From Odontesthes bonariensis (taxonomy: Eukaryota; Chordata; Actinopteri; Atheriniformes; Atherinopsidae): a stretch of 64,000 nt of DNA. The stretch is taken from NCBI RefSeq assembly GCF_027942865.1, contig NC_134508.1:36701466-36765465 (forward strand). The letters are read 5' to 3'. The notes under the pieces are model-generated. The model searched no databases. It saw nothing but the letters and a program-made list of their open reading frames with translations, and was not told the origin of the DNA. This document shows, one piece after another, positions 53,306-63,310 of this stretch; positions within the stretch are counted from its first letter, which is position 1; the number at the start of each line of letters is the position of its first letter. A program made the position numbers and the translations under genes.

Positions 53306-53321
53306 CTGAGGCTCATCTCTT
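53306..53321. repeat. Target-site duplication of the LINE at 53-63 kb
   Basis: CTGAGGCTCATCTCTT recurs exactly at 63295-63310. It sets both limits of the host LINE although its ends are 10 kb apart. Confidence 0.92.
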
Positions 53322-53570
53322 TGTCAATGTATCTTTATTGAACTTTTTTTAAAAAGTGTACACACAAGGCAATCAACATAAAGGATTAAATGCAAAACAG
53401 ACAAGAAAAAAAAACATACAAAAAAAACAAAAACCTCAACAAAAGGAAAGCCCATAAAAGTAGAAGAGTCCAAAGAGTCCAGATGTATTGTCCATTGTTC
53501 CTCAAGAAAGAAAGCTTAAGAAAGAAAAAGAATTGGGAGGGGGGGGGGGGCTGCCATATTATACAAGACA

Positions 53571-56500
53571 TTATACAAGACATTCTGAGTGCATTGTAAG
53601 CTGTTCCACATACGCAATGAATGAGTGCCATATAACCTGAAATTTGTCTGTTGACCCGTTTAATAAATATCTAATTTTTTCAACCTTCAGGAAAAACATG
53701 ACATCACAAATCCATCTACCAAAAGATGGAGGCTTGTCACTTTTCCAATTTAAAAGAATGAGGCGTCGTGCTAGAAGTGAAGAGTAGGCAATGCAATTTA
53801 ACTCAGGCTTTTGTATGGGAAGAATTTCTGCGGGTACACCAAAAAGTCCAATAAAAGGGCAAGGATCAATATTCACACCTGTAATTTTTGAATATGCTTC
53901 AAATATAGAGGCCCAGAAAGAAGTTAGACTGGAGCAGGACCAAAATGTATGGAAGAGAGTAGCTGGTGCCTGTTTGCATTTCTCACAAATAGGACTTACC
54001 TCTGGATAGATTTTGGATAACTTAACCTTAGACATGTGAAGCCTATGCACAATCTTAAATTGAATTAAGCTATGTCTAGCACAAATAGACGTGGAGTGAA
54101 TTCTTTGAAGTATATCAGACCATTGTTCATCTGTAATATTAACACCCATATCCTTCTCCCAGTTTTCCTTTATTATAATCAATGAACAGGTCTCCAAATC
54201 AAATATCCTTGCATACAACCTTGTTATGGCTCCTCTAATTCCAGGCTGTACCTCTAAGATTGCATCCAAAGATGTTGTCTGTGGTATTGAGGGGAATTCA
54301 GTAAAGTGACTCTTTACAAAATGTCTGACCTGCAGATATCTGAAAAAATTATTTGATGACAAATCAAATGTTTCCCTAACTTGATCAAAAGACATAAATA
54401 TGCCATCCTTATATAATGTTTTAATATTCAATACCCCACTTTGAAACCATTGACAGAATGTATGGTCCAAAAGTGAAGCTGGGAATAGGTGGTTGGCCGT
54501 AACTGGAGCATGCACTGACATGGATACTAGACCATAATGTTTACGGAACTGAGACCAAATCTTCAAGGAATGAAGCACAACTGGGTTCTGACAAGCCCGA
54601 GGTGAATGAAAGGGAATCGATGAACATAAAAGAGCAGACAGTGAAACTGGGCTGCAAGAGTTAGATTCCATATGTAGCCAGCCTGGAGCGTTATTTTGGG
54701 ATGGGTCCCAAAACCAATGCAAAAGACTTCTGATATTGGCTGCCCAATAGTACATTTGGAAATTTGGTAGTGCCATCCCGCCAGTCATTTTGGGGCGTTG
54801 TAAAAACAACTTTCTAATCCTTGGCCTTTTGTTATTCCAAATAAAAGAAGAAACAACACTATCAATTTTAGCAAAAAATGTTTTTGTGAGAAAAAATGGG
54901 ATACATTCAAAGAGAAATAAAAATTTGGGGAGGATGTTCATCTTAATTATACTGATGCGCCCAGCTAAGGATAAAGGCAATGTAGACCAGCGGTTGAGAT
55001 CCTGTTGAGTACGCTCCAAAAGTGGGTTGAAATTGGCCTTAATAAGCTGAGAGTGAGACTTAGCAACATACACACCCAGGTATTTTAAACCTTCGTAGGA
55101 GACTTTAAAAGGTAATGAATGAAATGAGAGTTTTCTAGCAGCTGTGTTAATAGGGAGGAGCTCACTTTTGTCAAGATTTAGCTTATAACCAGAGAAGATA
55201 CCAAAAACACTTAAAGTGTTAAGGATATGTGGAATGGAGGTTGCAGGGTCAGATATAAAAAGAAGGACATCATCAGCATACAGGGAGATTTTGTGTTCCC
55301 TGTGCGCCCTTGAAATTCCCTTAATATTTGTTTGCCGTCTAATGGTAGCTGCAAGAGGTTCCATGACCAGTGCAAAAAGTAATGGGGACAGGGGGCACCC
55401 CTGTCTAGTCCCACGCTGTAGGGGAAAGTAAGTGGAGTAAGTGTCATTAGTCCTAACTGAAGCCATAGGTGAGGTGTACAGCAATTTCACCCAAGAAATA
55501 AAAGTGGACCCAAAACCAAACTGTTGAAGAATATAAAACAAATATTCCCAATTCACACGATCAAAAGCAGAAGCCGCGTCCAGAGACAAAAGTGCCTCAG
55601 GCACCTGAGTTGATGACGGTGTGTAAAGAATATTAAATACACGCCTAATGTTGAAAGACAATTGTCTATTTTTGATGAAACCAGTTTGGTCGCAAGACAC
55701 AAGTGAGGGCAGGACAGTTTCAAGACGGAGAGCCAACACCTTCGCTAGAATTTTGACATCAACATTGAGGAGGCTTATGGGACGATACGAAGAACATTTA
55801 AGAGGATCCTTGCCCTTTTTCAGTAGCAAAGATATTGACGCTTGGCGTAAAGTTGGAGGAAGGCTCTGGGAATAAGAGCTGTCATCAAATACTTCCATTA
55901 GCAAGGGGCTAAGCTTTGCTGAAAACTTTTTATAAAATTCTGTAGGAAAGCCATCTGGACCTGGGCATTTTCCACTCTGCATGCATCTGATGGCATCGTT
56001 AATTTCGTCAAGAGAAAAAGGGGCATCTAGTGACTCTTTAATGGTCACGTCTACACAGTGCCGTAACCAGCATTGAGGACACACAGGTGATGACCTCGGT
56101 ATTTTCCCCGGTGATTTTTTATTTATTTATTTATTTTTATTCAGAGAAATGTCAAATTAATATAAGATGAAAATCGTTCTGACTTTGATTGGTGGAAAGA
56201 TCAGCATGCATTCTCATTTGTTTTTCTGAAAATAAAGTCCACATAATCCCTTTATCATCACGTTATATTTTAAAACTGAGCGGAAAAACGCCACCCGACT
56301 TTTTTTTTTTTTTACGCCACCCGACATTGGAAACATGTTTATCATATTACGCGCTTCGACGCAAAAGTCAGCTATGGAAGCAAGATAAAGAAATCTACTA
56401 AACAAACTAAACTCAGCTTTGGAAAGCTAACTGGCCAGGGGAAAAGAAAGAGAGAAGGAGGTGAGTTCATTTCGCCAATCGCCAGTGAGAATGAGTGACA

Positions 56501-61458: not shown

Positions 61459-61697
61459 GGATTATGAAGGGTCTTGGCTTTTCTCCGGGAGGCGGCCTAA
61501 CTGCTAGTGATCGGTGGCCACGGTCGAGGCGTGGAGTTTCATCCAGACCCAGTATCTCCTTCAACACTGTCGCACAGAATAGCCGCGCGTTGTTTCCTTC
61601 TTTGCCTTCCTTTATTCCCACCAACCGAATATTCTGTCGTCGGCTACGGCCTTCCAAATCCAGACATTTTTCGGATAGCCGGCACACCTCAGCCTGC

Positions 61698-62779
61698 TAC
61701 CGAACCCTTAAAATGACATGGCAGAGTAAAATAAAACCCAAGGGTTTCTCGTGCCCACCAGAAAAGTTTTGCGTCGGCACTAGAAAGTTTCTCGTGCGCA
61801 CGAGAAACTTTCACTTTATTGTAAAACAGTGTAGGTTAGGCACCAGGACGGGCAGAGAATCGTCATGTAGGTCAGCCGCGGCTATTCAGAGACAAAACAC
61901 GGGAAGCCGGACAGCCTCTCCCATTATCTGGCGAAATTGCTACATCTTCAATGTTAAATTGACGATAAAACAGTTATTCACAAAACACAAGATATGCCCA
62001 ATACTGCATTTACTTTCATAACTACAACATATTGTCCTGTAGCTTAATGAAGTGATTTGTTCTGAAATCGCCGCCGTTCACTGAGGAAATCATGTTATGA
62101 AGCCGCCACTAACACCCAGGCTTCCGAGGCAGCCCGGCGTCTCTGGGGGAAAATTAGACGTGGGCGTGTCAATATGAGGGGCTGTGTCGGGATGATTGGA
62201 GTTAGTGTTTGTCCATCAGATCTTGTGGCAGCAGAATTTTTAAGCGGGGAGAAGCACGCTGGAACTGCAGTCCCAAAGCGGATACGAAAGAGACTGGTTG
62301 TCTGTCAAAGTGCTGTCGGAGTTTCACTCATTTCCTATCGTTTCCATCCTTTACACACATACACTTTTGTAAATATTACACTGTAAATAAGAAACACATC
62401 CTTGTTGTTTAGAAGTTTTGTCAATCATATTCCTGTTGTGCATTTGTTTGTCGTGTTAGCTAGTTTTGTCACAATGGCGTTAAATGGGCTTCCCCTGTTT
62501 TAAAAGTCAGCAGCCGCCACTGATGTAGGTCTAATGTCAGACGCAGGTCAACTTTCTGCGGATATCAAACCGCGTAAGAGTAAGTATCCTGGGCCTAATT
62601 CTTTAAGTTTCACGTTCCCACCAGAAAGTTTCGGGTGCGCACGAGAAAGTTTCACGTTCCCACCAGAAAAGTTTAAGGTGCGCACGAGAAAGTTTCAGGT
62701 GCGAACGAGAAAGTTTTGCGTGCGCACGAGAAAACCTTGGGTTTTATTTTACTCTCATATGTCATTTTAAGGGCTCCGT
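61698..62779. mobile_element. Non-autonomous DNA element with iterated CGTGCGCACGAGAAAGTTT motifs
   Basis: Ends are inverted: TACCGAACCCTTAAAATGAC at the left, and ACGGAGCCCTTAAAATGAC from the right inward, both leading to AGAGTAAAATAAAACCCAAGG. Direct repeat AGCCTGC flanks it (61691-61697 and 62780-62786), a 6-7-bp duplication depending on where the tip is set. Near both ends GTGCGCACGAGAAA and CCCACCAGAAAGTTT units repeat in tandem (about 61750-61815 and 62610-62735). No transposase is seen. The 6-7-bp duplication excludes TA and TTAA types and does not fit the 8-bp hAT rule; the family is unassigned. Confidence 0.8.
62600..62740 (+). repeat. Tandem subterminal iterons of the element
   Basis: At least six units of about 20-25 bp alternate GTGCGCACGAGAAAGTTT and TTCCCACCAGAAAGTTT. 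The mirror cluster lies at 61750-61815. Clustered palindromic GTGCGCAC cores at both ends look like binding sites for a trans-acting transposase. Confidence 0.75.
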
Positions 62780-63310
62780 AGCCTGCAGCTTTTCCACTGT
62801 AGATTCCAGACTCATGACAGTAGAGCTCCACTCCGTGGTAGCTTGCTCGAGGTCGTCAACGCGCTTGGAGGTCTGAGTGTTAGCAGACTGCAATGAGCTG
62901 ACATTCATGTGCAACTCATGGCGAACTGAGGCTATCTCTTGACGAAGGGCAGTAGTTTGAGTGTCAATTTTAGTGCCCAACGATTCAATTGCTGCCATTA
63001 TTTTCTCAACGAAATCCGGGGAAGGTTGTGCCTCAGCGCTAGCTTTTTTGCTAGTTGTAGCAGGTTTCTGTCGGCTAGCCATTTTAAAACCAAAGTTGAG
63101 GAAAAGAGGAAAATAGTCCTTGCTGCAATTTTAGTCCTTCAAAAGTTCCTCAAAGCACTCAGACACTCGATTTCACTATCAATGACCACTTTGCACATTG
63201 ATTAATACAATTAAATAAGATATACCCGCTGAGCTCGAGAACCACGGAGCCTCACATGTCGAGTGCGAACCCCGAGTCCCACGAACCCCGAGTCCTGAGG
63301 CTCATCTCTT

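Follow-up and report, generated by a model that had tools for sequence, protein, structure and literature searches.

The window analysed here is a stretch of 64,000 nucleotides from Odontesthes bonariensis (assembly GCF_027942865.1, contig NC_134508.1, positions 36,701,466 to 36,765,465 of the forward strand), and it carries on its minus strand a long interspersed nuclear element (LINE) of the L1 clade that is interrupted by three DNA elements, here called E1, E2, and E3. With a probability of approximately 95%, a young LINE lying in a 16-bp target-site duplication was hit by three unrelated DNA elements that inserted separately. The LINE would have arrived by target-primed reverse transcription, and E1, E2, and E3 would then have inserted one by one with transposases supplied from elsewhere. 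With open reading frame (ORF) 1 cut twice and ORF2 cut once, the window copy would no longer be able to make full-length proteins. A preliminary description of this stretch, made from its letters, had proposed that a LINE flanked by a 16-bp duplication hosts three nested elements; this is confirmed by the duplications, the reading frame, and empty sites in sister copies of the LINE, and no evidence was found against the nest itself. The features are listed in Table 1.

Table 1. The interrupted LINE and its parts, in coordinates of the window.
Feature	Position	Strand	Remarks
LINE target-site duplication, downstream copy, 16 bp	53306..53321	.	CTGAGGCTCATCTCTT; exact match to 63295-63310
L1-clade LINE	53322..63294	minus	5′ end 63294, 3′ end 53322; interrupted by E1, E2, and E3; assigned by human L1 ORF2p homology and same-genome copies
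ORF2 3′ piece, reverse transcriptase and C-terminal Cys/His region	53571..56045	minus	stop TAA; PF00078, E value 1.4e-38
E1, hAT-like, 1,686 bp	56056..57741	.	ends CAGTGCCGTAACCAG/CAGGGCCGTAACCAG; duplication CGTCTACA (8 bp) at 56048-56055 and 57742-57749
ORF2 5′ piece, AP-type (apurinic/apyrimidinic) endonuclease	57743..59110	minus	PF03372, E value 9.2e-11; first in-frame ATG not before codon 58
ORF1 third piece	59844..60170	minus	stop TGA; query 59884-60170 matches 2jrb, E value 2.9e-4
E2, Mutator-like, 1,277 bp, 16-bp subterminal repeats	60182..61458	.	duplication GGATTATGA (9 bp) at 60173-60181 and 61459-61467
ORF1 second piece	61460..61690	minus	open, 77 codons; in phase with first piece counting one duplication copy
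E3, IS3EU-like	61698..62780	.	ends TACCGAACCC...GGGCTCCGTA; duplication GCCTGC at 61692-61697 and 62781-62786
ORF1 first piece	62780..63082	minus	ATG at 63082; open, 101 codons
LINE target-site duplication, upstream copy, 16 bp	63295..63310	.	CTGAGGCTCATCTCTT; exact match to 53306-53321

Architecture of the interrupted LINE

In 4,000 draws of boxes of the same size at random positions, none equaled the 16-bp duplication that encloses the LINE (draws less than 200 bases apart were skipped, so slightly fewer than 4,000 were actually tested). Each of the three inserts features inverted-repeat ends and its own duplication, and the three are unrelated to each other, as had been proposed. E1 cuts ORF2 between the endonuclease and the reverse transcriptase, and E2 and E3 cut ORF1. 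In free boxes of the same kind, chance yields matches of 8 bp in 109 of 4,000 draws, of 10 bp (the E2 box) in 14, and of 7 bp in 466; the short duplications are nevertheless real because they adjoin inverted-repeat ends, preserve the frame, and lie at places that are uninterrupted in other copies of the LINE. Of the duplication lengths given previously, 8 bp for E1 and 9 bp for E2 stand, and the 6 to 7 bp left for E3 are settled as 6: the 7-bp version AGCCTGC was rejected since other copies of E3 place the seventh base inside the element, which gives a 6-bp duplication beside TA...TA ends.

Both ORFs stay in frame across all three insertion sites. ORF1 runs from the ATG at 63082 to the stop at 59844 and measures 864 nt net of the inserts and of one duplication copy each, as described before. 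ORF2 spans 3,846 nt net from stop to stop (59110-53571); the earlier figure of 3,837 nt counts from the TTG at 59101. The claim of an absence of internal stops is borne out, with none in the 1,566 whole codons of the five coding pieces. Human L1 ORF2p (8sxt) aligns collinearly with ORF2 and shows no gap where E1 is inserted. Residue 439 is paired with codon 453 of the 5′ ORF2 piece and residue 447 with codon 4 of the 3′ piece, and the codons in between equal the intervening 8sxt residues in number if one duplication copy is counted.

Sister copies and empty insertion sites

At least 10 other copies of the LINE with approximately 94 to 99% identity are present in the host genome, at C23:25.8, C12:3.55, C17:9.0, C12:5.44, C13:8.1, C13:30.1, C3:21.4, C16:30.3, C14:17.3, and C17:10.5 Mb. 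These counts are lower bounds, since 40 of 191 candidates were scored for the 3′ piece and 40 of 69 for the middle piece. Alignment to these copies, which the preliminary description had called for, finds all three insertion sites empty. The E1 site is unoccupied in all seven other copies that extend to it, the LINE parts abutting exactly in six and being separated by one unaligned base in the seventh. For E2 and E3, the counts refer to the six copies whose 5′ part was retrieved and that extend to both sites: the E3 site is empty with exact abutment in 6/6, and the E2 site is empty in 6/6 with exact abutment in five and two unaligned bases in the sixth. The empty sites are the strongest evidence for the secondary nature of the inserts and for the duplication sizes in Table 1.

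The same counts bear on a rival reading, in which the source copy of the LINE was itself already interrupted by at least one of the inserts and the nest arrived as a unit. The 16-bp duplication does enclose everything, and the order of events is unreadable from the window copy alone. However, an insert is common to none of the seven (E1) or six (E2 and E3) other copies, and, with ORF1 and ORF2 both cut, a LINE would presumably depend on help in trans; arrival as a unit is highly improbable, and separate insertion into the LINE remains the preferred reading.

Among the six other copies with a 5′ end, three are interrupted as well (C12:5.44, C13:30.1, and C17:9.0 Mb), by inserts of 0.5 to 5.4 kb as judged by coordinates. 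Nested transposons in young LINEs, hence, look ordinary in this genome, and the three hits need no common cause. That the inserts cluster because the LINE or its locus attracts transposons is suggested by three hits in approximately 10 kb and by the interruption of those three sister copies, but E1, E2, and E3 have neither their ends nor the length of their duplications in common, and dozens of matches to each of them lie elsewhere; attraction is an improbable explanation. The ends were read for two of the inserts in the interrupted sister copies; at C13:30072092-30073583, a 1.5-kb insert with the inverted ends CAGTGTTTCCCGCAG...CTGCGGGAAACACTG interrupts another copy of the LINE.

Age of the LINE and of its contents

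The window LINE features 23 private substitutions at 4,945 sites (0.47%), counted over those of its approximately 5,904 sites that are covered by at least three other copies; 13 of the substitutions change an amino acid, 7 are silent, and 3 lie outside the coding pieces. Neither the LINE at this place nor any of the three hits can be older than these 0.47% imply; the value is only an upper bound because some substitutions may predate the insertion or be common to copies not compared. The substitution distance to the other copies ranges from 0.6 to 2.1% in the 3′ piece. A stop-codon clock with an assumed transition bias gives d < 1.8%, which is weaker than the private count; some of the other copies contain one or two stops within the parts compared. 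The L1-clade family to which the window LINE belongs is small, and the window copy is one of its young members. Of the earlier claim that the three elements moved recently and in a short time, the first part stands, as all three moved within the life of this copy and E2 is identical to copies elsewhere (see below); the data provide no relative order or timing of the hits.

Dating the inserts by divergence from their family consensus, as had been suggested, can mislead. The private divergence of E2 is 0.89% with few relatives aligned and 0% as soon as a tandem row of E2 copies is added, and that of E1 (18/1,639, 1.10%) exceeds the value for the LINE that hosts it (23/4,945; Fisher p 0.0098). 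The E1 excess was not used as a sign of an old copy jumping, given that only six other E1 copies were aligned and that a missing relative inflates the figure, as in the case of E2. E3 has 7 private substitutions at 971 sites (p 0.32 versus the LINE), to be read with the same caution on sampling. A date taken from how far the two ends of a single DNA element have diverged was likewise rejected, as these ends differ from the outset. Nested inserts together with empty sister sites provide a clean relative clock: the contents of a LINE with at most 0.47% private substitutions moved after the LINE. This clock shows that divergence dates of DNA elements depend on sampling.

Start of ORF2 and competence of the LINE

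ORF2 of the window copy has no in-frame ATG ahead of codon 58, which is inside the endonuclease. Seven LINE copies were compared in this region (the window copy and six others, 59 to 120 codons each): six of them have no ATG before codon 58, and the same in-frame stop occurs 20 codons ahead of a conserved anchor in six of the seven. The copy at C12:3.55 Mb carries a 5-bp difference just upstream of ORF2, and its frame is open further, with in-frame ATGs. The stretch concerned spans 59110-58939 in the window and the same place in the six other copies. Since the AUG-less copies include that at C17:9.0 Mb, which shows the greatest divergence (2.1% in the 3′ piece), the missing AUG belongs to the family and does not reflect decay of the window copy alone. 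ORF2 may either start without an AUG, or the AUG-less copies may move using the proteins of other copies. The family is, hence, a naturally occurring case in which non-AUG initiation by L1-type elements can be tested.

The 3′ end of the window copy is also unusual for its family: only 2 A lie beyond the shared 3′ end (53320-53322), both of them also within the duplication, compared with 8 to 15 A in all eight other copies with a visible 3′ end. It is possible, if doubtful, that the LINE arrived already immobile because ORF2 had no start codon, in which case the inserts silenced nothing. This would agree with the lack of an in-frame ATG before codon 58, with the 5-bp difference just upstream of ORF2 in the sole ATG-bearing copy of the seven, and with the short A tail. 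However, the AUG-less state is found in 6/7 copies including that at C17:9.0 Mb, which nevertheless spread with A tails, and the five coding pieces are free of stops; in addition, translation of ORF2 in bicistronic LINEs is described as unconventional in any case (PMC2881922). The preliminary description had regarded the LINE as intact when hit and as possibly a competent copy silenced by its inserts. That the frames were open when hit is supported, but competence is weaker than claimed owing to the absence of an early AUG and the short A tail, with the AUG-less state perhaps being the norm of the family.

Several points qualify the reading of a young LINE hit by three DNA elements, though none speaks against the nest itself. 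ORF2 without an in-frame AUG and the short A tail render the competence of the LINE when hit only putative. No duplication is present at two of nine other E2 copies and at one of six other E3 copies. In addition, a Pfam search with the five longest frames of E1, E2, and E3 yielded no transposase, the partner elements of E1 and E3 not having been sought. The longest open frames of E1, E2, and E3 comprise 115, 111, and 107 codons, respectively, and because of these short frames and the lack of a transposase match the three elements are taken as non-autonomous. A match to DUF1661 in these frames was below threshold (E value 0.18) and is taken as chance.

Assignment of the LINE to the L1 clade

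The reverse transcriptase piece of ORF2 has human L1 ORF2p as its top match among solved proteins (E value 4.5e-110), followed by the type R2 at 2.2e-22; judged by this best match, the reverse transcriptase is of the L1 type. The endonuclease piece matches human L1 ORF2p with an E value of 3.7e-55 and is of the AP type, with the stretches NxxGLN, ETH, YAPN, GDxN, ID, and SDH, among which are catalytic residues, common to ORF2 and human L1. The third piece of ORF1 matches 2jrb, the C-terminal domain of the mouse L1 ORF1 protein; the middle piece has no match among the solved proteins searched. Based on these sequence matches, the window LINE is assigned to the L1 clade. It shares with this clade the two ORFs, the AP-type endonuclease, the L1-type reverse transcriptase, an ORF1 that matches an L1 ORF1 protein, and the 16-bp duplication, and its sister copies feature A tails. 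It features two differences compared with the usual L1, in which the spacing of ORF1 and ORF2 is short and ORF2 has an AUG: approximately 730 nt separate ORF1 and ORF2, and ORF2 of the family lacks an in-frame AUG in 6/7 copies.

Relatives of ORF2 were found neither in the viral contigs nor in the prokaryote genomes searched, as expected for a vertebrate element. The LINE family was not recognised among the papers found on nested insertions with teleost L1, on AUG-independent ORF2, and on fish L1 lineages, which is not to claim that it is unpublished. The 5′ end of the window LINE (63266-63294) bears a near-duplicate, with GACTCGGGGTTCG occurring twice, 16 bp apart. The first 14 to 27 bases of the window LINE are unaligned in the six other copies that cover the 5′ end.

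E1 and E3

E1 belongs to the hAT-like elements. Among the 40 of 220 candidates scored, full-length copies in the same genome have 92 to 95% identity if indels are included, and the mean substitution distance among seven aligned copies is 1.5 to 2.4%. An 8-bp duplication flanks the window E1 and all six other copies, that is, 7/7 copies examined, and the ends begin with CAG, which is a habit of hAT elements. E1 differs from the hAT superfamily in that its longest frame has no transposase match, no partner having been sought.

E3 features near-full copies of 88 to 98% identity (40 of 589 candidates scored). In the window, it is flanked by a 6-bp duplication beside TA...TA ends; in six other copies, an exact 6-bp duplication beside TA...TA ends occurs in four, one with a single mismatch occurs in the fifth, and none in the sixth. 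Duplications of 6 bp and TA...TA ends are the features given for IS3EU in PMC10045372, and in both E3 is like the IS3EU/GingerRoot elements, whereas its longest frames have no transposase match, again with no partner sought. Dada, considered for E3 owing to the 6- to 7-bp duplications, was rejected: Dada-U6 and Dada-U1 are without terminal inverted repeats according to PMC3706591, in which the Dada elements described reside in small-RNA genes. No relative of the E3 end was present in the viral contigs searched.

E2 and the tandem row on C20

E2 resembles Mutator-like elements (MULEs) by its duplication length and end structure only. Besides the window copy, only three exact full-length matches (1,277 bp, 100% identity) were found among the 40 of 1,178 candidates scored, and these three lie head to tail at C20:11543704-11547540, separated by the spacers AG and AGAA. 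One 9-bp duplication, GGACAGAAG, flanks the whole row. The full identity to the three C20 copies along all 1,277 bp shows that the window E2 moved very recently; its mean difference to four other aligned copies is 2.75%. In nine other E2 copies, the duplication is 9 bp in five and 8 bp in two, the remaining two having none. Two of the five with 9 bp have common flanks and may be one locus duplicated. These two copies (C24:24832179-24833495 and 25437680-25438996) are 600 kb apart and have the same duplication in common, as a segmental or assembly duplicate would.

The duplication length of 8 to 9 bp expected of MuDR/MULE elements is found at the window E2 and at the trimer (9 bp each). Together with subterminal short tandem repeats, it likens E2 to the mosquito MULEs as presented in PMC5225508; E2 differs from MULEs in that no transposase gene is linked to it. 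The authors of that study suggest that the mosquito MULE transposase cuts beyond the ends of its element, leaving deletions of 1 to 4 bp (PMC5225508). In bacteria, IS256, which is related to Mutator elements, gives rise to circles whose joined ends are separated by short spacers of unequal length (PMC7780238, PMC3942029). The E2 trimer, with its abutted ends and uneven short spacers, resembles such circle junctions, at one locus only. It features two differences compared with IS256: the spacers measure 2 and 4 bp versus 6 to 8 bp for ISCth4 and 6 to 10 bp for related circles in the same sources, and three copies stand consecutively at one place.

By this analogy, E2 might be a vertebrate Mutator-like family able to move via joined-end intermediates (circles or concatemers) like IS256, in which case the trimer would be an inserted multimer and the window E2 a monomer of the same burst; this is a tentative and rather unlikely proposal. 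Three copies within one duplication are as expected from insertion of a preformed multimer, and the spacer AG is identical to the two bases with which the left flank of the trimer ends. The spacer AGAA, however, differs from the abutting four bases of either flank, both at the trimer and at the window site, so that only one of the two spacers matches a flank there; the locus is single, and the spacers are below the bacterial 6 to 10 bp. The trimer could instead stem from local duplication or from end-joining of excised copies, and an assembly error is also conceivable. If it is a true multimer insertion, the trimer would be a specific sequenced case on which a use of circles by eukaryotic Mutator-like elements, in the manner of IS256, could be examined.

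Other features of the window

A second, more diverged L1-like element lies on the plus strand at 20622-25384 and features an ORF1-like frame and an ORF2-like frame, the latter split near 23555 by a frame change. Further L1-like ORF2 fragments are found on the minus strand at 42975-43388 and 38325-39170, with 48% and 28% protein identity, respectively, to ORF2 of the window LINE. Two guanylin-family coding stretches occur on the minus strand at 35134-35484 and 46373-46816 (PF02058, E values 1.5e-13 and 1.5e-16). These two stretches, together with the L1 make-up and the genome size of 945 Mb, point by themselves to a vertebrate host and probably to a teleost. A tRNA-family match of 53.9 bits at 31611-31682, also on the minus strand, is a tRNA gene or else a repeat of tRNA origin.

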